Assembly (NCBI GenBank): GCA_027488965.1
Contig: JAIYAO010000172.1
Span: 1 to 40,351 of the forward strand
Source of the DNA: Alphaproteobacteria bacterium
GTDB lineage: Bacteria; Pseudomonadota; Alphaproteobacteria; Caulobacterales; Aquidulcibacteraceae
Direction: 5' to 3'
Length of the DNA: 40,351 nucleotides
Shown here piece after piece: positions 32,708 to 39,992 of the stretch. The stretch's first letter is position 1; each line of letters opens with the position of its first letter. The notes beneath the pieces were generated by a model that saw only the letters and a program-made list of their open reading frames with translations, was not told the origin of the DNA and made no database searches. The position numbers were made by a program, and so were the translations under genes.

Positions 32708-33117
32708 GCCTTGTCCCCGCAGTGATCCGCAACACATCGAACGCCCCCCGCGAGACATTCCGTCGCAAGCGCCGCGTGTGCGGAAAGGCCGTCTACATGG
32801 CGCCTGCGAGGCCCGGGTACGGCCATTCGGGGGCGAAACGCCAGTGGATAGTGGGTAAGGCGGGGTCGCGGCCTGCGCGCGCCGCAAGCGCGCTGCTTTG
32901 ACACGTCGGCATCCCGCTGGTCCGCGAGGGACAAATGTGCATAAACCCGGGGTGCCGGCGGGAGGCAACGTCGGGGCTTTGGTCGGAAGCGGTCCGACCC
33001 CCAGCCCTGCCGTTCATTTGCTAGCGAAGCAATCCTCGCTGGACGGACTTTGCGGACACAATGTAGTGTCCAGTTCAATGACCGCATGAAGAGTGCGCGT
33101 GTATTAGAGGGAGCGTC
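32708..33117. promoter_or_regulatory. 410-nt divergent region between DUF1800 and cytochrome c
   Basis: No credible ORF is seen. It is the border between the general chromosome and the photosynthesis cluster. It must hold promoters for both flanking genes. The only clear element is the dyad at 33054-33071, next to the cytochrome gene. Confidence 0.55.
33054..33071. promoter_or_regulatory. Operator-like dyad upstream of cytochrome c
   Basis: GGACAC-AATGTA-GTGTCC: a perfect 6-bp dyad with a 6-nt spacer, ending 46 nt before the start codon. The inner GACAC-N6-GTGTC is identical in layout to the dyad before bchG at 38515-38530, suggesting one regulator. Confidence 0.6.
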
Positions 33118-33660
33118 ATGAGGACCACGAAATCACTGATGGGGGCGATCGCCCTGCTGGCGGTTGTCGCCGCCTGCTCGCAGTCCGAACAGAAGGCTGA
33201 GGCGCCGCCGGCCGCCACCGAAGAAGCGGCGGCCCCCGCCGCCGAAGCCCCCCCGGCTGAAGCCGCGCCCGCGGCCCCTGCTGCGACGGCGGCGGCACCC
33301 CCGGCCGGCGGCATCGCGCTGGACGTGAAGGACGCCGCCGGCGCCACGCTCACGGGCAGCGTCGAAGCGGGCGCGCGGATTTTCCGCCAGTGCCAGACGT
33401 GCCACGTCACCACCGCGGGCGTGAACAAGGTCGGCCCGTCGCTGCACGGCATCATCGGCCGCACGGCCGGCACGGTGCCCGGCTTCCGCTACTCCAACGC
33501 CAACAAGAATTCCGGCATCGTGTGGACCGAGCAGGAGCTTTACAGCTACCTCGAAAACCCGCGTGCGAAGATCCCGGGCACGATCATGGCGTTCGTGGGC
33601 CTGCGGGACTCCCAGCAGCGCGCCGACGTGATCGCCTACCTGAAGGAAAACACCAAGTAA
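33118..33660 (+). CDS. Lipid-anchored class I cytochrome c
   Basis: A 180-residue lipoprotein cytochrome. Signal peptide with lipobox VAAC (lipidated C20), then an Ala/Pro/Glu-rich tether (about 21-64) and a mitochondrial/c2-like haem domain: CQTCH at 92-96, NKVGPSLHGIIGR at 103-115, NPRAKIPGTIMAF at 147-159 with axial M157. Anchored small cytochromes (cytochrome cy type, though that one has a transmembrane anchor) carry electrons between bc1 and oxidase or reaction centre. Its position at the border of the photosynthesis cluster makes a role as reaction-centre donor plausible; a purely respiratory role is possible. GAGGGAG precedes the ATG. Terminated by a strong hairpin. Confidence 0.9.
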   Translation: MRTTKSLMGAIALLAVVAACSQSEQKAEAPPAATEEAAAPAAEAPPAEAAPAAPAATAAAPPAGGIALDVKDAAGATLTGSVEAGARIFRQCQTCHVTTAGVNKVGPSLHGIIGRTAGTVPGFRYSNANKNSGIVWTEQELYSYLENPRAKIPGTIMAFVGLRDSQQRADVIAYLKENTK

Positions 33661-33684
33661 CGGGTGTTTGAGTTCTGATTGCAG

Positions 33685-33720
33685 GAACCGCCGGATCGCA
33701 GGATCCGGCGGTTCTTTTGT
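33685..33720 (+). terminator. Rho-independent terminator after cytochrome c
   Basis: A perfect 13-bp stem (33685-33697 with 33702-33714), loop GCAG, then TTTTGTTTTG. It ends cytochrome c transcription 25 nt after the stop. It may also block leftward read-through poorly, since only the right side has a T-run. Confidence 0.9.
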
Positions 33721-33739
33721 TTTGCAGCGAGGGCCGGCC

Positions 33740-34276
33740 CTACACGCCGCGGCGGAAGATGATCGTGTTGCGCCCGAGCAGAATCCCGAACTTGGTGACG
33801 CGGGCGCGATTGACGAGCACGTCGGCGTCCACGAGCGTGAACGTCTCGCTGAAGCGCACCGGCAGGCGCCGTGCGCCGATGTTCAGCTGGAACAGATACG
33901 ACCACGCTACGCCCTGCGCCGTGGCGCGGCCTGACGCCTCGCCGATCATGTCGTCGGCGGTGGCGCGGTAGCCGTCGGCACCCACGGGCGTGATGCGCCA
34001 GACGCGATGCTCACGCGCGCCGTCGTCGAACAGGAAATCCTCGTCCAGGTTGAACGTGTCACCGTCCATGTGACCTTGCAGCGTGATCGCCATGCGCCTG
34101 CGCACCGCGCCGAAACGGTCCTCGAACATCCCCACGCCGGTGCTGCGTCCGGCGAAAAACGCCTCGAGGCGCAACGGCGCGGGCGCGAGCGTGTCCGGCC
34201 GCGCGGCGGGCGCATGTGCTGCGCCGTCGGCGAGGCCCGTCGCCAGGGCGGTGATGTGCTTGGCTGTGACGGCCAT
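33740..34276 (-). CDS. DUF3833 family protein, last gene of the bch operon
   Basis: A 178-residue protein matching DUF3833. LEAFFAGRSTGVGMFEDRFG starts the conserved domain, followed by RRRMAITLQGHMDG, LDEDFLFDDGAREHRVWRI, ATADDMIGEASGRA and NRARVTKFGILLG. DUF3833 is a beta-rich, lipocalin-like domain family of unknown function, usually a periplasmic lipoprotein. Here the usual lipobox leader is replaced by about 37 residues (MAVTAKHITALATGLADG) without a clear signal, so this copy may be cytoplasmic. Its ATG overlaps the stop of the 92-residue membrane protein. Its place in a bacteriochlorophyll operon suggests a role in pigment or lipid handling, but this is inference. Confidence 0.82.
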   Translation of the reverse strand: MAVTAKHITALATGLADGAAHAPAARPDTLAPAPLRLEAFFAGRSTGVGMFEDRFGAVRRRMAITLQGHMDGDTFNLDEDFLFDDGAREHRVWRITPVGADGYRATADDMIGEASGRATAQGVAWSYLFQLNIGARRLPVRFSETFTLVDADVLVNRARVTKFGILLGRNTIIFRRGV

Positions 34277-34554
34277 CAGAGACGCCTCCGCATGAGATCG
34301 ACCAGGTGGAACGGGAACGAGGCGGCGAGCCAGAACGCACACGTGGCCCAGCCGCCGCCGGTCAGCGCCGCACGCAGCGCCAGCAGGATGCACGCGCCAG
34401 GCGCGAGTGCAAAGACGAGATCGACCGCACGCGCGCGCCGCGCGCCCGCCGTGGCCATGGCCAGCAACGCTGCAAACTCGAGCACGATGACGCCGAGCAC
34501 TACGTCCACGGCGGCCCCACTGGCGAACAGGCGCTCCATGGCGTCCACCCTCAT
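34276..34554 (-). CDS. 92-residue membrane protein in the bch operon
   Basis: A small protein with three hydrophobic helices (about 12-35, 45-63 and 67-85), ending FPFHLVDLMRRRL. The ATG at 34554 overlaps the tspO stop (ATGA), and its own stop overlaps the DUF3833 start (TGATG), so it is translated within the chain. An ATG five codons on is an alternative. I do not recognise a named family. It lies between tspO and DUF3833, which argues for a joint membrane function. Confidence 0.75.
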   Translation of the reverse strand: MRVDAMERLFASGAAVDVVLGVIVLEFAALLAMATAGARRARAVDLVFALAPGACILLALRAALTGGGWATCAFWLAASFPFHLVDLMRRRL

Positions 34555-35042
34555 CCAAACGGGGCGTTGAGATCGACGACCGCACGGTTCAGTACGGCGG
34601 CGAAGGACACCCACACCAGATACGGCGCGAGCAGCCATGTGGACTGCTGCGACCAGCGCCAGACAAACACCGCCAGCAGCACGATGGACGCCCACAGCGC
34701 CGCCACCTCGATCAACGCCCAGTCAGGACGCCTGAGACGAAAGAACAGCAGGCTCCAGAGCACATTCAGAAAGCCATTGAACGCAAACAGGCCCACGATC
34801 CAGTCGCGTGCGGCGCCGCGGGGAGCGGCGCGCCACGCCAGGACGGCGGAGGCCGCCGCCGTGGCATAGACGATCGTCCAGACAATGCCGAAGGCGGCAT
34901 CCGGCGGCTGCCAGTCCGGCTTCACAAGGCCGCGGTACCAGGGCCCCAGGTCGGTGACGGTGGCGCCGAGCGCGGCCAGCAGCAATGCAGCGGCGGCCGC
35001 CACGAGCACCGCGCGCCCGCGCGTGGCGCCGGCGGTGGTCAC
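34551..35042 (-). CDS. tspO: TspO/MBR family tetrapyrrole sensor
   Basis: A 163-residue five-helix membrane protein. Family motifs: WYRGLVKPDWQPPDAAFGIV, WTIVYATAAASAVLAWR, NGFLNVLWSLLFFRLRRPDWAL and the last helices LLAPYLVWVSFAAVLN. In Rhodobacter, TspO binds or moves porphyrin intermediates and dampens photosynthesis gene expression in response to oxygen. The GTG start at 35042 overlaps the bchP stop (GTGA). It takes the place held by idi after bchP in the Rhodobacter cluster. Confidence 0.95.
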   Translation of the reverse strand: MTTAGATRGRAVLVAAAAALLLAALGATVTDLGPWYRGLVKPDWQPPDAAFGIVWTIVYATAAASAVLAWRAAPRGAARDWIVGLFAFNGFLNVLWSLLFFRLRRPDWALIEVAALWASIVLLAVFVWRWSQQSTWLLAPYLVWVSFAAVLNRAVVDLNAPFG

Positions 35043-36238
35043 GACGGCGAGAGGCCGAGCAGGTGTCCCATGTCCTTCATGAAGATGCGCGCGTGGGCGC
35101 CGGGCTTGGCGCGCACCAGTTCCTTGTTCATGTAAGCCTGCCACGTGAGGTACTGCACGTCCGGGTCGGCGCACATCTTCACGAAGCGCTCGCGGCGTTT
35201 GTCGTTGCGGTACCAGAAGTGCTGCATGACCCCGAGGACCATGAACACCTGGCCGTGCGCGCGCATGAACCGCTTGCGCGCGCCGGCGAGTTCGGAGGCC
35301 TTGCCCGTGCGCAGCAGCGCGTCCACGGAGGTCGCGGCCTCGCGGCCGCCGAGCATGGCGTAGTAGATGCCCTCCCCGGACGCCGGCGCCACGACACCTG
35401 CCGCATCGCCGGCGAGCACCACATCGCGGCCGTTGTCCCAGCGCTTGAGCGGCTTCAGCGGAATCGGCGCGCCTTCGGTGCGCACGGTCTCGCACCCCGC
35501 GAGGCCCGCCTCCGCGCGCAAGGTCTTGATGGCGCCGCGCAGGGAGAAGCCCTTCTGCGCACTGCCGACGCCGATGCTGGCGGTCTTGCCGTGCGGGAAG
35601 ATCCAGGCGTAGAAATCCGGCGAGAGGTGGCCCTGGTAGAACACGTCGCAGCGGCGCGCGTCGAAATCGCCTGTGCCGTGGGCCGGAGCGCGGATGATCT
35701 CATGGTAGGCGAACACGCACGGCATGCGCTCGGCCTCCTTCGACATGCCGCGCGCGACCCGCGAGCGCGCGCCATCGGCGCCGATGATCGCGCGGGCGCG
35801 CACGCGCAGCGGCGGCGCATCTTCCGCGAGCGAGTAGTCCCGGTAGCAGACCACGGCGCAGTCGTCGTCGTCGCGGTCGATGCTTTCAAAGCGCCCCTTG
35901 CGCCGCACGGCGCCCGCATCCGCGGCGCGCACGCGCAGCCATTCGTCGAACGCGTCGCGATCGACCATGCCGACGAAGCCGCCCTCCACGGGCATGTCCA
36001 CGCGGCGTTCGGACGGCGCGATCATGCGCGCGGCCTGCGCCCGCGCCACAAGCAGGTGATCGGGGATCGCGAAGTCGCGGATCAGGCGCGGGGGAATGGC
36101 GCCGCCGCAAGGCTTGATGCGACCGGCCTTGTCCAGCAGCAGGACGGCGCGTCCCGCAAGCGCAAGGTCGTGGGCGGCGGTGGCGCCGGCGGGGCCGCCG
36201 CCCACCACCACCACGTCGAAGGTCTCGGTGCGGCTCAT
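35039..36238 (-). CDS. bchP: Geranylgeranyl reductase BchP
   Basis: A 399-residue flavoprotein that reduces the geranylgeranyl tail of bacteriochlorophyll to phytyl. FAD-binding VVVGGGPAGATAAHDLA lies near residue 9-25, then KAGRIKPCGGAIPPRL, GADGARSRVARG and VVLAGDAAGVVAPASGEGIY. The context KPCGGAIPPRLI and FYAWIFPHGKTASIGVGS are diagnostic of BchP/ChlP. The ATG overlaps the stop of the pucC-like gene by four bases. Together with bchG it completes the last steps of pigment synthesis. Confidence 0.96.
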   Translation of the reverse strand: MSRTETFDVVVVGGGPAGATAAHDLALAGRAVLLLDKAGRIKPCGGAIPPRLIRDFAIPDHLLVARAQAARMIAPSERRVDMPVEGGFVGMVDRDAFDEWLRVRAADAGAVRRKGRFESIDRDDDDCAVVCYRDYSLAEDAPPLRVRARAIIGADGARSRVARGMSKEAERMPCVFAYHEIIRAPAHGTGDFDARRCDVFYQGHLSPDFYAWIFPHGKTASIGVGSAQKGFSLRGAIKTLRAEAGLAGCETVRTEGAPIPLKPLKRWDNGRDVVLAGDAAGVVAPASGEGIYYAMLGGREAATSVDALLRTGKASELAGARKRFMRAHGQVFMVLGVMQHFWYRNDKRRERFVKMCADPDVQYLTWQAYMNKELVRAKPGAHARIFMKDMGHLLGLSPS

Positions 36239-37587
36239 CCTTGTACTCCGCTGGCGCGCGCTGGCAGGGCGTCGATAAGGGACGGCGAGGACGCCGGCCG
36301 TTCAACGAGGTCGAGGCGGCTCGCCAGCACGGCAGCAGCCACGAACAACAGCGCCTCGGCGCTGAAGACGATCAGGAAGGCCCGTGGCGCATCCCCGGTG
36401 AGGTGGCGCACAACATCCACGCCGGCCGCGCCAAGGAAGCCGCCGAGGCCGAACGCGATGGCCTGGCTTGCGCCCCACACGCCCATGCGCACGCCCTCGC
36501 GCGATTCGCGCCCTGCGCCCGCAAGGCCCATCATCGAGCCGATGGCGGCGACGGCGAAGATGCCATTGGCGAGACCCAGCAGGAACACCGTGGGCGCAAT
36601 CGGCCACCCGGGCCCCACCAGCGCCGCCGCGCCCAGCGCGCCGAGCGCCAGCGCGGAGCCCACGCAGCCGAAAATCGTCCAGCGCCGCATCCACACCTGT
36701 TTGCCGTCCCGCGACCGGGCGCCGAAGGCGTCGACGACGATCATGCCGAGCAACACGCCGCCGTTCTGCATGCCGGCCATCTGCGTCGACTGGCCGGGCG
36801 TCATGCCGAACACGAGGCCGGCGAAGGGCTCGAGGATGAGATCCTGCGCGCTGTAGGCGAGCATGGCGACGAACACGAACACCGCAAACCGGCGCGCCAG
36901 CGGCTCCGCCCAGATTTCCGCGATGACGGCGCGGAACGCGGGCTTGGGCTCGGGCGCCGCACGCGCTTCCTGTGGGGCCGCCGCCGGTGCGCCCTCCACG
37001 CCCCACACCGCCAGCAGCGCGACGATGAAGGCCACCGCCGCCACGCCTGTCGCCACCATCGCAAGGCGCTGTCCGGAGAACGGATCAAGCAACGCGCCCG
37101 CCGTGGCCGCCGTCACCACGATGCCGACGATCATCATGATCCACGTGATCGACGCGGCGGCCGGCCGGCGCGCCGGCGTCACGCGCGTGGCGAGCAGCGC
37201 GAGCAACGACGTGCCCGAGGCGCCGACGCCGGCGCCGATCATCAGATAGGCGAGGATCGACAGCAGCACGCCCATCACCGGTGCATCCGGCATCATCAGC
37301 GTGGCGTCCGTGGCGAGAATGCCGCCCAGCGCCAGCACGCCCATGCCGCCGATGATCCACGGCGTGCGGCGATGGCCCATGTCCGAGCCGTAGCCCCAGC
37401 GCGGGCGCGAGATCTGCACGCCGTAGTGCCACGCCACGAGCGCCGCCGGCAGCATGGCGGGCAGCGCCATCTCGACCACCATGACGCGGTTGAGCGTCGA
37501 CGTGGTCAACACGACGATGGCGCCGAGCGCACTCTGCACAAGACCGAGGCGAACGATGCCCAGCCACCCGAGCGGCGCAGGTGTCAT
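36235..37587 (-). CDS. PucC/Bch2 family MFS protein (ORF428 type)
   Basis: A 450-residue, 12-helix MFS protein of the BCD (bacteriochlorophyll delivery) family. Features: GIVRLGLVQSALGAIVVLTT, LNRVMVVEMALPAMLPAALV, the loop PRWGYGSDMGHRRTPWIIGG and later FAGLVFGMTPGQSTQMAG. It lies between bchG and bchP exactly like ORF428 of Rhodobacter. Related proteins (PucC, LhaA) help assemble light-harvesting complexes, probably by handing over pigment. Both ends overlap the neighbouring genes. Confidence 0.93.
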   Translation of the reverse strand: MTPAPLGWLGIVRLGLVQSALGAIVVLTTSTLNRVMVVEMALPAMLPAALVAWHYGVQISRPRWGYGSDMGHRRTPWIIGGMGVLALGGILATDATLMMPDAPVMGVLLSILAYLMIGAGVGASGTSLLALLATRVTPARRPAAASITWIMMIVGIVVTAATAGALLDPFSGQRLAMVATGVAAVAFIVALLAVWGVEGAPAAAPQEARAAPEPKPAFRAVIAEIWAEPLARRFAVFVFVAMLAYSAQDLILEPFAGLVFGMTPGQSTQMAGMQNGGVLLGMIVVDAFGARSRDGKQVWMRRWTIFGCVGSALALGALGAAALVGPGWPIAPTVFLLGLANGIFAVAAIGSMMGLAGAGRESREGVRMGVWGASQAIAFGLGGFLGAAGVDVVRHLTGDAPRAFLIVFSAEALLFVAAAVLASRLDLVERPASSPSLIDALPARASGVQG

Positions 37588-38498
37588 GACTGACCTCCAG
37601 TGAGGGACCCGATGGCGAAGGCGCTGACCAGCATGCCGAGGACGTAGAGCGTGGTGCCGGTGGCGTTGTACCAGGGCACATGCTTGAGCGGATCACTGAG
37701 CAGGCGGCGCATCAGCACGCCCTGCGCCAGCAGCGCGACCAGCACGCCGACGGCGTGCCAAGGCTTGCCCCACGCGAAGAGCAGGCCGATCACCACCACC
37801 TGCGGCGCAGCCATCACGGCGCAGGCGAGCCGCGCTGCGTTGGCGACGCCGAACTGCACTGGCAGCGACCGGATGCCGAGCTGGCGATCGCCTTCGATGG
37901 CCTTGAAGTCGTTCAGCGTCATGATGCCGTGCGCGCCGAAACTGTAGAGCGCGATGAGCATGAGATTGCGCACGTCGGGCAGCGCGCCCGTCATCACGGC
38001 GGCGCCGGTGAACCAGGAAATGCCTTCATAGGAGATGGCGACCGACGCCGGGCCCCACCACCCGCTCATCTTCAGCCGCACCGGCGGCGCGCTGTACGCC
38101 CAGGCAAACAGGAGGCCGACCACTGCGGCGACGAATACCCATATGCCGAGCGTCGCCGCCACGAGCAGCGAAAGGCCCGTCCACGCGATGGCGATCCAAA
38201 GGCCCCAGCGGCCGGGAATGCGGCCCGAAGGGATGGGGCGATCAGGTTCGTTGATCGCGTCCACGTGGCGATCGTACCAGTCGTTCACCGCCTGGCTGGT
38301 GGCGCACACCATCGGCCCCGCGAGCACGATGCCGGCGACCGCAAGCGGCCACTTCTCGGCGAGCGGCGCGCCTGACGACACGACCCCGCACATGAACGCC
38401 CACATGGGCGCAAACCAGGTGATGGGCTTGAGAAGTTCGAGCACGGCGCGCGGGTGCGGCGCGGGCGCGAAGCGTGCTGAAACGGACTGCGGATCCAT
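37584..38498 (-). CDS. bchG: Bacteriochlorophyll synthase BchG
   Basis: A 304-residue UbiA-family prenyltransferase that joins bacteriochlorophyllide to geranylgeranyl diphosphate. The two Asp motifs are intact: N72-D-x-x-D-x-x-x-D80 in VNDWYDRHVDAINEPDRP, and ND197-x6-D204 in LNDFKAIEGDRQLGIRSLP. EPDRPIPSGRIP is specific to chlorophyll synthases. ATG 38498 (MDPQSVS) is preferred; a GTG 7 codons earlier at 38519 lies inside the operator-like dyad. With TTGACA about 17 nt before TAGCGT, the likely promoter puts transcription start close to the ATG, so a very short leader is possible. First gene of a six-gene coupled operon. Confidence 0.94.
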   Translation of the reverse strand: MDPQSVSARFAPAPHPRAVLELLKPITWFAPMWAFMCGVVSSGAPLAEKWPLAVAGIVLAGPMVCATSQAVNDWYDRHVDAINEPDRPIPSGRIPGRWGLWIAIAWTGLSLLVAATLGIWVFVAAVVGLLFAWAYSAPPVRLKMSGWWGPASVAISYEGISWFTGAAVMTGALPDVRNLMLIALYSFGAHGIMTLNDFKAIEGDRQLGIRSLPVQFGVANAARLACAVMAAPQVVVIGLLFAWGKPWHAVGVLVALLAQGVLMRRLLSDPLKHVPWYNATGTTLYVLGMLVSAFAIGSLTGGQS

Positions 38499-38512
38499 GT
38501 CGCACGCTAAAA

Positions 38513-38532
38513 TTGACACCCAAAAGTGTCAA
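38513..38532. promoter_or_regulatory. Operator-like dyad upstream of bchG
   Basis: TTGACAC-CCAAAA-GTGTCAA: perfect 7-bp arms with a 6-nt spacer. Its core GACAC-N6-GTGTC equals that at 33055-33070. It overlaps the PpsR-type box by one half-site and the putative -35. Confidence 0.6.
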
Positions 38533-38544
38533 GCCGAATTGACG
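38527..38544. promoter_or_regulatory. PpsR/CrtJ-type box upstream of bchG
   Basis: TGTCAAGCCGAATTGACG fits the PpsR consensus TGT-N12-ACA with the inner C and G also present and only the last base wrong. Arms TGTCAA and TTGACG are inverted. PpsR is encoded immediately upstream, so repression of the bchG operon by PpsR is likely. Confidence 0.65.
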
Positions 38545-38558
38545 CTTTTTGCGTGGTG

Positions 38559-39992
38559 TCAGGCGGGATCGGGATCCAGATTGCCGAGCCCGTAGCGGTG
38601 CAGTTTGGAATAGAGGCTTTGCCGGCTGAGGCCGAGCACTTCCGCAGCCGACGCGCGGTTGTTGCCCGTCAGTTCGAGCGCCGCCTCGATGCACAGGCGT
38701 TCGACGAGGTCGGTGGTGTCGCGCACGATTTCCTTTAGGGACGCGCGCCCCACGAGCTGGCTCATCTCCGCCGCAGAGTGCGGCAGGTCCGGGCGCCGCT
38801 GCGAACCGCGTTCGGCATCGCGCCGGGTGACGCCGCGGATGGAGAAGCCATAGCAGGGCTGGCTGCCGTCGGTGACGGCCACGGCCGAGACCTCCACGTC
38901 CTCCTGGTCGAAGAACTGGGTGCGTACGACGGTGGAGAAGTTGCGCACGACGCCGTGCTTGCGCAGCATGTCCATGAGAATGTTGCGATCGATGCCCGGA
39001 CGGCCGAGGAAGCGGTCAAGGGACTGGCCGCGCGCCTGCTCCTTGCTCGGCAAACGCACAAGATCAAGGAACGACGAGTTTTCGGCGAGGATGTGCAGCG
39101 CCTCGTCGGTGACGACGAACCCGTCGGGCATGCGCTCCAGCACCTCCAGCAGGCGCAGGCTTGCCTCAGGCGCCGCGGGCTCCGCCCGGTCATGGGGCGA
39201 GAGACGGACGAGGAAATGGGCCACGCGGTCCTGCCGGAACAACGAGGCGGAGACCGCATAGTCCCGGCCGTTGACCGTGAGCCGCTCCTGCGAGCCCGCC
39301 GGCCGTGACGACGATTGCGCCACCGAGAGCAGGGTCGCGGCCGATTCCTGGGACTGCACCGCAAAGACCTTTGCGAACGCACGGCCCACGATGGCGCCGT
39401 CGCCGCCGATGAGCCGGTCCGCCGCCGGGTTGGCCTCCACCACGCGGCGCGTGCGCGCATCGACGATGAGCACGGCTTCCGTGGCCATCTGAAACAGCAG
39501 CCGGTAGCGCGCTTCAGCGTCGCGCAGGCGCGCGTAGTCCCTCTCCATGGATTGCTGGGCCTGGACGAGGCGCTGCTGCATCGCCGCCGTGGCGCGGTGA
39601 TCGCGCCCGATGGCGATGATGCGTCCGTCGCGGCCGGCATCGACAGTGACGTAGCGCACCGCCACGGACTCGCCGCGAGCGGTCGGGTGGTTGATCTCGC
39701 GCCAGCGGGACGCGGCGTTGCCGGCGGCGTCGCGCAGCAATTCCTCCACCTTGATGCGGCTTTCGATGGTGACCGTATCGGCCCAGCGCTTGTCCAGCCA
39801 GGATTCGAACCCGTCGAGGTGCAGATCGCGGTTGTTGAGCGCGAGATCGCAGATGACGCCATCACGGTCGATGACCATGGCGACGTCGCTCGCGGCGACC
39901 ACAACCTTTGACGCAACGGAAGCATCGAGTCCGCCGAGCAAATTCCTCTGGAATTGCATCCCGCCGTTGCCGGTATGAATCTCAGTCGCCAT
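38559..39992 (-). CDS. ppsR: Photosynthesis repressor PpsR/CrtJ
   Basis: A 477-residue transcription regulator. Three PAS regions can be traced: about 25-135, 160-265 (LLFQMATEAVLIVDARTRRVVEANPAADRLIG) and 280-390 (LERMPDGFVVTDEALHI). A coiled-coil linker around 135-160 precedes the second. The Fis-type HTH is at 434-470, with NNRASAAEVLGLSRQSLYSK. PpsR represses bch, crt and light-harvesting genes under oxygen. Only three Cys are present: C48, C380 and C434. C434 sits at the HTH start like Rhodobacter C424, but I see no partner near position 250, where CrtJ C249 lies. Start at ATG 39992 gives the usual length (464-480). It is 35 nt after ppaA. Confidence 0.95.
   Translation of the reverse strand: MATEIHTGNGGMQFQRNLLGGLDASVASKVVVAASDVAMVIDRDGVICDLALNNRDLHLDGFESWLDKRWADTVTIESRIKVEELLRDAAGNAASRWREINHPTARGESVAVRYVTVDAGRDGRIIAIGRDHRATAAMQQRLVQAQQSMERDYARLRDAEARYRLLFQMATEAVLIVDARTRRVVEANPAADRLIGGDGAIVGRAFAKVFAVQSQESAATLLSVAQSSSRPAGSQERLTVNGRDYAVSASLFRQDRVAHFLVRLSPHDRAEPAAPEASLRLLEVLERMPDGFVVTDEALHILAENSSFLDLVRLPSKEQARGQSLDRFLGRPGIDRNILMDMLRKHGVVRNFSTVVRTQFFDQEDVEVSAVAVTDGSQPCYGFSIRGVTRRDAERGSQRRPDLPHSAAEMSQLVGRASLKEIVRDTTDLVERLCIEAALELTGNNRASAAEVLGLSRQSLYSKLHRYGLGNLDPDPA

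Follow-up and report, generated by a model that had tools for sequence, protein, structure and literature searches.

A shared inverted repeat before bchG and a lipid-anchored cytochrome c gene is the probable core of a PpsR-type operator in a phototroph of the Aquidulcibacteraceae

Contig JAIYAO010000172.1 of an alphaproteobacterium assigned to the Aquidulcibacteraceae (assembly GCA_027488965.1) carries the 16-bp inverted repeat GACAC-N6-GTGTC before two genes, one encoding a lipid-anchored class I cytochrome c and the other, bchG, encoding bacteriochlorophyll synthase. The window analyzed here, 40,351 nucleotides long, is the whole of this contig (C31) within a 3.28-Mb genome of 200 contigs; C labels denote contigs, G labels genomes of relatives, and L labels loci. 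In purple bacteria, photosynthesis genes are typically repressed by PpsR. We propose that the dyad is, with high probability, the core of a PpsR/CrtJ operator through which bchG and the cytochrome c gene would be repressed together. Taken separately, a PpsR operator at bchG is nearly certain, and one at the cytochrome c gene is reasonably likely; we infer PpsR binding, repression, and any oxygen or light response in this organism from its DNA sequence.

The initial annotation described two exact copies of the dyad at promoter distance from start codons. Both were found, at 33055–33070 and 38515–38530, with perfect arms and equal spacers, and the window contains no other. The copies lie 48–63 bp upstream of the cytochrome c ATG (33118) and 17–32 bp upstream of the bchG ATG (38498, minus strand). 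In 100 shuffled versions of the window the mean was 0.02 dyads, and no run contained two. The window holds 234 repeated perfect 5-bp dyad classes against 181–240 in six Markov sequences, and 17 classes with at least two A/T per arm against 3–10. As a post-hoc pattern the repeat is weak, and because it is not striking in itself, support was sought from tests independent of its discovery. A genome scan returned the exact string at three places: the cytochrome c and bchG promoters, and a third in the bchC promoter (C32:49305–49320). Frequent occurrence at random positions had been named beforehand as the sign that would speak against the dyad; the string is neither rarer nor commoner genome-wide than expected from an independent, identically distributed (i.i.d.) model at 70% G+C, which predicts approximately 3.05 copies in the genome and 0.038 in the window. 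Since the total is thus ordinary, only the placement, which is the unusual part, was used: all three copies fall on C31 and C32, together 3.1% of the genome (P = 3e-5).

At bchG (37584–38498, minus strand; TIGR01476 above cut-off), the dyad is contained in an inner half-site pair, TGACA-N8-TGTCA (38514–38531, minus strand), recovered by a KGACA-N8-TGTCM scan and by a matrix built from relatives. The dyad's right arm doubles as the left half-site of a PpsR-type box, TGTCAAGCCGAATTGACG (38527–38544), which on the gene strand (minus) reads CGTCA-N8-TGACA, has TGT-N12-ACA geometry with one mismatch to TGTCAN8TGACA, and has its TGACA in common with the dyad. A further half-site, TGTCA, follows at 8 bp (38518–38514, gene strand). 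The bchC promoter has the same offset between dyad and box, the box being TGTCCATTTAGACTGACA at C32:49317–49334. The probable regulator itself, ppsR, lies at 38559–39992 on the minus strand (start codon assigned by eye), its product scoring 428 bits against TIGR02040, for which the cut-off is 275.

These arrangements suggest how the dyad would be read. PpsR recognizes half-sites of the TGACA type that alternate in orientation at 13-bp intervals; the complete array is (YGT-N12-ACA)-N8-(YGT-N12-ACA), and the dyad would be the inner pair TGACA-N8-TGTCM spanning the 8-bp gap between neighboring boxes. The outer C and G of GACAC/GTGTC would correspond to a frequent extension of the half-site, TGACAC. 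The layout had been described by the initial annotation as the reverse of the PpsR box; it appears instead to be two neighboring boxes viewed over their junction. Of the two readings considered there, a cooperative PpsR arrangement is favored by the common box offset at bchG and bchC and by conservation of the array, and nothing calls for a distinct regulator. TGACA at both bchG and bchC lies inside TTGACA, a likely −35 element, with TGTCM between −35 and −10. At bchG we infer a promoter at 38504–38532 (minus strand) from conservation in relatives, with −35 TTGACA at 38532–38527, a spacer of 17 bases, and −10 TAGCGT at 38509–38504. Because the half-sites extend across the −35/−10 region, bound PpsR would exclude RNA polymerase; sitting across TTGACA and the spacer, it would most likely hold bchG silent when conditions favor repression, as demonstrated for bchC and bchF in other organisms. 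The putative −10 element ends 5 bases upstream of the bchG ATG (38496–38509, minus strand), much as in relatives, so that bchG may be transcribed without a leader.

An identical set of 22 of 61 genomes, the present one included, encodes PpsR and BchC. The promoters of relatives retain the array YGTC-N8-TTGACA-N8-YGTCM at both bchC and bchG. TTGACA-N8-YGTC was present in 19 of the 20 bchC loci fetched, with G008 differing by one gap base; within those 19 loci, a preceding YGT half-site occurred in 17 and a following TKACR in all. At bchG, YGT-N9-TTGACR was present in 19/19 promoters read, and YGTCM followed at N8 beyond TTGACR in 16 of these (not in G009, G021, or G005); the bchC and bchG totals include the present genome. 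No variation was seen in TTGAC or in the GT of the following half-site across the 31 sites aligned, the constancy of TTGAC arising partly by choice, as the sites were picked with a pattern containing it. In the alignments inspected, TANNNT occurs 16–17 bases past TTGACA, which is why TTGACA is probably also a −35 box. The exact string GACACN6GTGTC precedes bchG in 6 of 18 relatives (G033, G024, G007, G035, G028, and G016) and bchC in 2 of the 18 relatives with a site (G011 and G013); the exact arms vary among relatives, and half-site spacing and TTGACA are constant.

Scoring matrices gave a second line of evidence. An outward-pair matrix was compiled from 36 sites before relatives' bchC and bchG (effective number 18), with the present genome and all cytochrome c promoters excluded. 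In the window it ranked bchG first (25.5) and cytochrome c second (19.1), the next position reaching 9.8, and none of 5 million Markov positions attained 19.1. On C32 it gave 21.3 for bchC, 16.0 for crtD/E, and 12.9 for crtI, with the next at 9.7; by chance the crtI score would occur about 37 times per genome and the crtD/E score about twice, and both sites draw further support from their inward boxes and from where they lie. A matrix of 13 published Rhodobacter sphaeroides PpsR sites from chromatin immunoprecipitation sequencing (ChIP-seq) placed the bchG box at the top of the window (18.4), and bchC, crtI, and crtD/E at the top of C32. Finally, a 44-bp profile of the relatives' bchC and bchG arrays, run over the genome at E ≤ 10, returned five rows at three places: bchC (E = 4.5e-6), bchG (1.3e-4), and C121:11853 (0.079).

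The pattern KGACA-N8-TGTCM matches seven places exactly in the genome, against five for the same pattern read backwards as a control. Five of the seven are the cytochrome c gene, bchG, C32:42034 (crtI), C32:47224 (the crtD/crtE intergenic region), and C32:49304 (bchC), all on C31 and C32 (P = 6e-7). The crt and bchC names were assigned from translations and gene order, and for bchC also from homolog retrieval, rather than from profile searches. The remaining two, C101:28003 and C152:221 (scores 16.4 and 7.5), were set aside as probable chance matches; the former (TGACAATTAGGCATGTCC, C101:28003–28020, L107) lies upstream of a gene for a PLP-dependent decarboxylase of the ornithine/arginine type, and its score is near the chance level of one or two per genome.

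Several other places in the genome carry related motifs. The C121 match (C121:11853–11875, L124) reads CGTCC-N8-TTGACA, is flanked by BchF-like and PpaA-like B12-binding translations, and is probably a further PpsR site; the PpaA-like translation has two Pfam B12 matches, both slightly below cut-off. A PpsR-like box, TGTTCGTCTAGCTTGACG, lies at C32:38299–38316 (L020), approximately 50 bp upstream of a bchI-like open reading frame at 38351, and scores 17.3 with the relatives' inward matrix and 10.7 with the R. sphaeroides matrix. The crtD/crtE array (C32:47211–47254, L021) is preceded by an additional palindrome, TGTCC-N7-GGACA (TGT-N11-ACA), whose 7-base step resembles the out-of-phase half-site at the cytochrome c gene.

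Turning to the cytochrome c promoter, the dyad at 33055–33070 is contained in an outward half-site pair with the N8 spacing, GGACA-N8-TGTCC (33054–33071, plus strand), the second-ranked position noted above. A third half-site, TGACC (33079–33083, plus strand), is out of phase, lying 7 rather than 8 bases past TGTCC. The inner pair is thus present and the inward box degenerate, and PpsR would probably repress through the inner pair. In three relatives (G001, G032, and G034) the cytochrome c promoter has a full box at the same distance, TGTCG-N8-TGACA, with TGACA at 8 bases and [GT]GACG 8 bases upstream of the box; G021 has TGTCC-N8-GGACG, formed by a core with a 7-base gap. In total, a strong PpsR-like site precedes the cytochrome c ortholog in 5 of the 18 phototrophic genomes read, the promoter of G011 being unreadable (15 bases). 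Conservation upstream of orthologs, which the initial annotation named as a test, holds for the array at bchG and is patchy at cytochrome c. G002, a genome of the same genus that has the ortholog and lacks ppsR and bchC, shows no PpsR-like site before it. Eight cytochrome c promoters from one related genus (L028, L031, L032, L035, L036, L037, L038, and L042) likewise have no PpsR-like site; they have in common a block around TCAC-N6-GTGACTCTRGACC at about −90, with AGTCACAGGTTCGTGACT in two of them.

Several observations weigh against joint repression by PpsR, most of them at the cytochrome c gene. The present genome has no canonical inward TGT-N12-ACA box before this gene, TGT-N11-ACC being the closest approach, and the best inward score of the R. 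sphaeroides matrix around it is only 4.4. The 44-bp profile did not find cytochrome c, crtI, or crtD/E at E ≤ 10, which speaks against a complete array before the cytochrome c gene. Eleven of the 18 phototrophic genomes read (eight of one genus, together with G009, G008, and G005) have no PpsR-like site before the ortholog, and the sites of G022 and G004 are only moderate. A strict consensus scan detected no sigma-70-like promoter at either the cytochrome c or the bchG place, and the loose inward pattern TGTCAN8TGACA, allowing one mismatch, shows hardly any enrichment across the genome (19 places, with 11 for the reversed control), so that this pattern alone is unspecific. The published table of 15 R. 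sphaeroides PpsR target operons contains two hypothetical proteins and no named cytochrome c (PMC4344238), and no cytochrome c was found reported as a direct PpsR target in the parts of the literature searched. Part of this evidence would be explained if the operator were real at bchG and the half-site pair at cytochrome c were a chance match or a non-functional leftover, as the missing canonical box, the failure of the 44-bp profile, and the 11 genomes lacking a site would suggest. We consider this a serious but less probable alternative, because the score that no Markov position reached came from a matrix that never saw a cytochrome c promoter, and because G001, G032, and G034 carry full boxes at the same distance and G021 carries one as well.

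The remaining alternatives concern the dyad itself. Its perfect arms and equal spacer at both places, together with the exact string before bchG and bchC in some relatives, could indicate that a regulator other than PpsR reads GACAC-N6-GTGTC as its own inverted repeat. This is very unlikely: in the remaining relatives the arms vary freely (for example, TGACA-N8-CGTCC) while TTGAC and the next GT are retained, and an additional half-site stands at PpsR spacing at both bchG and bchC. A distinct regulator was accordingly set aside, since the exact arms vary while the phase of the PpsR half-sites stays. Least probable of all is that the dyads act in RNA, the bchG copy terminating ppsR transcription and the cytochrome c copy forming a hairpin in the leader. 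TTGACAC and GTGTCAA of the bchG strand are pairable and are followed by TTTT, and the predicted fold of the cytochrome c dyad contains a 6-bp stem; however, a scan found no terminator-like site at the two window places, and folding was no better than in shuffled sequences (z = −0.58 and −0.66). Moreover, no more than four of the six outer pairs survive in 12 of 19 bchC sites, even though five or six survive in 12 of 19 bchG sites, and the bchG array of five genomes in one related genus starts approximately 105–140 bp past the ppsR stop codon. The hairpin was set aside as it is the half-sites, rather than the pairing, that are conserved.

A PpsR operator core thus remains the preferred reading of the dyad, and the nature of the cytochrome bears on what such control would mean. 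The gene (33118–33660, plus strand; PF00034 above cut-off) encodes a 180-residue protein with a lipobox (recognized by eye), a linker rich in Ala, Pro, and Glu, and a single class I heme domain with a CxxCH motif. Its best matches among solved chains include cytochrome cy (6xkx and 6xkw) and cytochrome c2 (1co6), with nearly equal E-values that cannot separate the two types. Among the 61 genomes, an ortholog of at least 60% identity is present in 19 of the 22 phototrophs and in 1 of the 39 remaining genomes; in 15 of these 19 phototrophs it shares a contig with ppsR, at a distance of 4.1–4.9 kb, and in the other four it is on another contig. In an overlapping set of 200 genomes from the order, matches at E ≤ 1e-36 occur in 27 of 32 genomes with BchC and in 3 of 168 others (G002, G052, and G144), an association (Fisher 4e-25) whose statistic ignores relatedness. 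Matches outside the family are 48–58% identical and may include paralogs; 8 of 10 such matches in phototrophs lie approximately 10–31 kb from bchC on the same contig. Within Caulobacterales, phototrophy genes have been described in 35 of 347 species (PMC12700997).

Because this cytochrome follows phototrophy where PufC is rare, it may be the reaction-center donor. PufC was found in 2 of the 200 genomes: G015, which is phototrophic and lacks this cytochrome, and G171, which lacks a BchC match, so any mutual exclusion of PufC and the cytochrome rests on few PufC genomes. A PF02276 search of the present genome alone gave no match and contained no control match; G015 was positive in a separate search. 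G171, where the PufC gene lies at G171:C88:2118–3074, yielded neither a BchC match at E ≤ 1e-60 nor a close cytochrome c; its photosynthesis cluster may have been lost or may be missing from the assembly, or the PufC gene may be a contaminant. Two further results limit this picture. Four phototrophs (G040, G080, G154, and G161) have neither this cytochrome nor PufC at the thresholds used, G040 falling just short with a copy that lies close to bchC (E = 2.4e-36); the two donors thus do not split phototrophs cleanly. In addition, a contig scan yielded 12 loci, and in the eight, from named relatives, that were searched with ten proteins of the present genome (L109–L116, some partial) only the cytochrome c matched, away from the photosynthesis genes searched for, which limits the claim of linkage to genomes of the 61- and 200-genome surveys. 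The confidence attached to PpsR control of cytochrome c, and to the extension that follows, was lowered slightly on both counts. A possible, though doubtful, extension is that in this order the lipid-anchored cytochrome, encoded with photosynthesis genes, replaces PufC as donor and has joined the PpsR regulon, with the outward pair GGACA-N8-TGTCC sufficing in the present genome without a canonical box; if two outward half-sites do suffice there, PpsR could act via the inner pair alone.

The identity of the dyad can be regarded as settled at the strength given above, and the analysis provides a regulon map for a little-studied phototroph that comprises bchG, bchC, crtI, and crtD/crtE, and perhaps bchF/ppaA and bchI. 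The initial annotation expected the dyad to tie an electron carrier to late pigment synthesis, and such a link is likely. If it holds for cytochrome c, the electron donor would be produced only alongside the photosystem, and its gene would offer a handle on which cytochrome feeds reaction centers that lack PufC.

The comparison with known systems (also drawing on PMC5362033, PMC4452267, PMC3176799, PMC12654162, and PMC10890935) shows that the operator at bchG is ordinary, and indeed expected given published counterparts that include bchG as an R. sphaeroides target, and that the one at cytochrome c is mildly new. In R. capsulatus, the bchC operator bound by CrtJ consists of two TGTN12ACA palindromes, at −47/−30 and −21/−4, which cover the −35 and −10 elements and are thus 8 bp apart; bchC here has the same half-site order and 8-bp gap. 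In contrast to that operator, bchG here has no fourth half-site, the third half-site at cytochrome c is out of phase, and several half-sites have CGT for TGT. Rubrivivax PpsR binds (TGT-N12-ACA)-N8-(TGT-N12-ACA), with a redox response that depended on this spacing, and in Dinoroseobacter shibae half-site changes derepressed bchF. The 15 R. sphaeroides ChIP-seq target operons include bchC, crtEF/crtCD, crtIB, bchG-pucC-bchP, ppaA, and bchF; the bchG-pucC-bchP site there, before the same gene, has a box closely similar to the one described here (TGTAA-N8-TGACACT versus CGTCA-N8-TGACACT; PMC4344238), and the visible dyad at bchG here is made by the TGTCA half beyond the box. Turning to the electron carriers, a cycA gene lies within the photosynthesis cluster of Rhodobacteraceae, cytochrome cy delivers electrons from bc1 to the reaction center, and reaction centers without PufC are known to be fed by cytochrome c2 (PMC6052148, PMC4919336, PMC5643017). 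The cytochrome described here resembles c2/CycA and cy in being a class I cytochrome c, its own donor role being putative; it differs in its predicted lipid anchor and in having its gene approximately 5 kb from ppsR instead of next to hemA.

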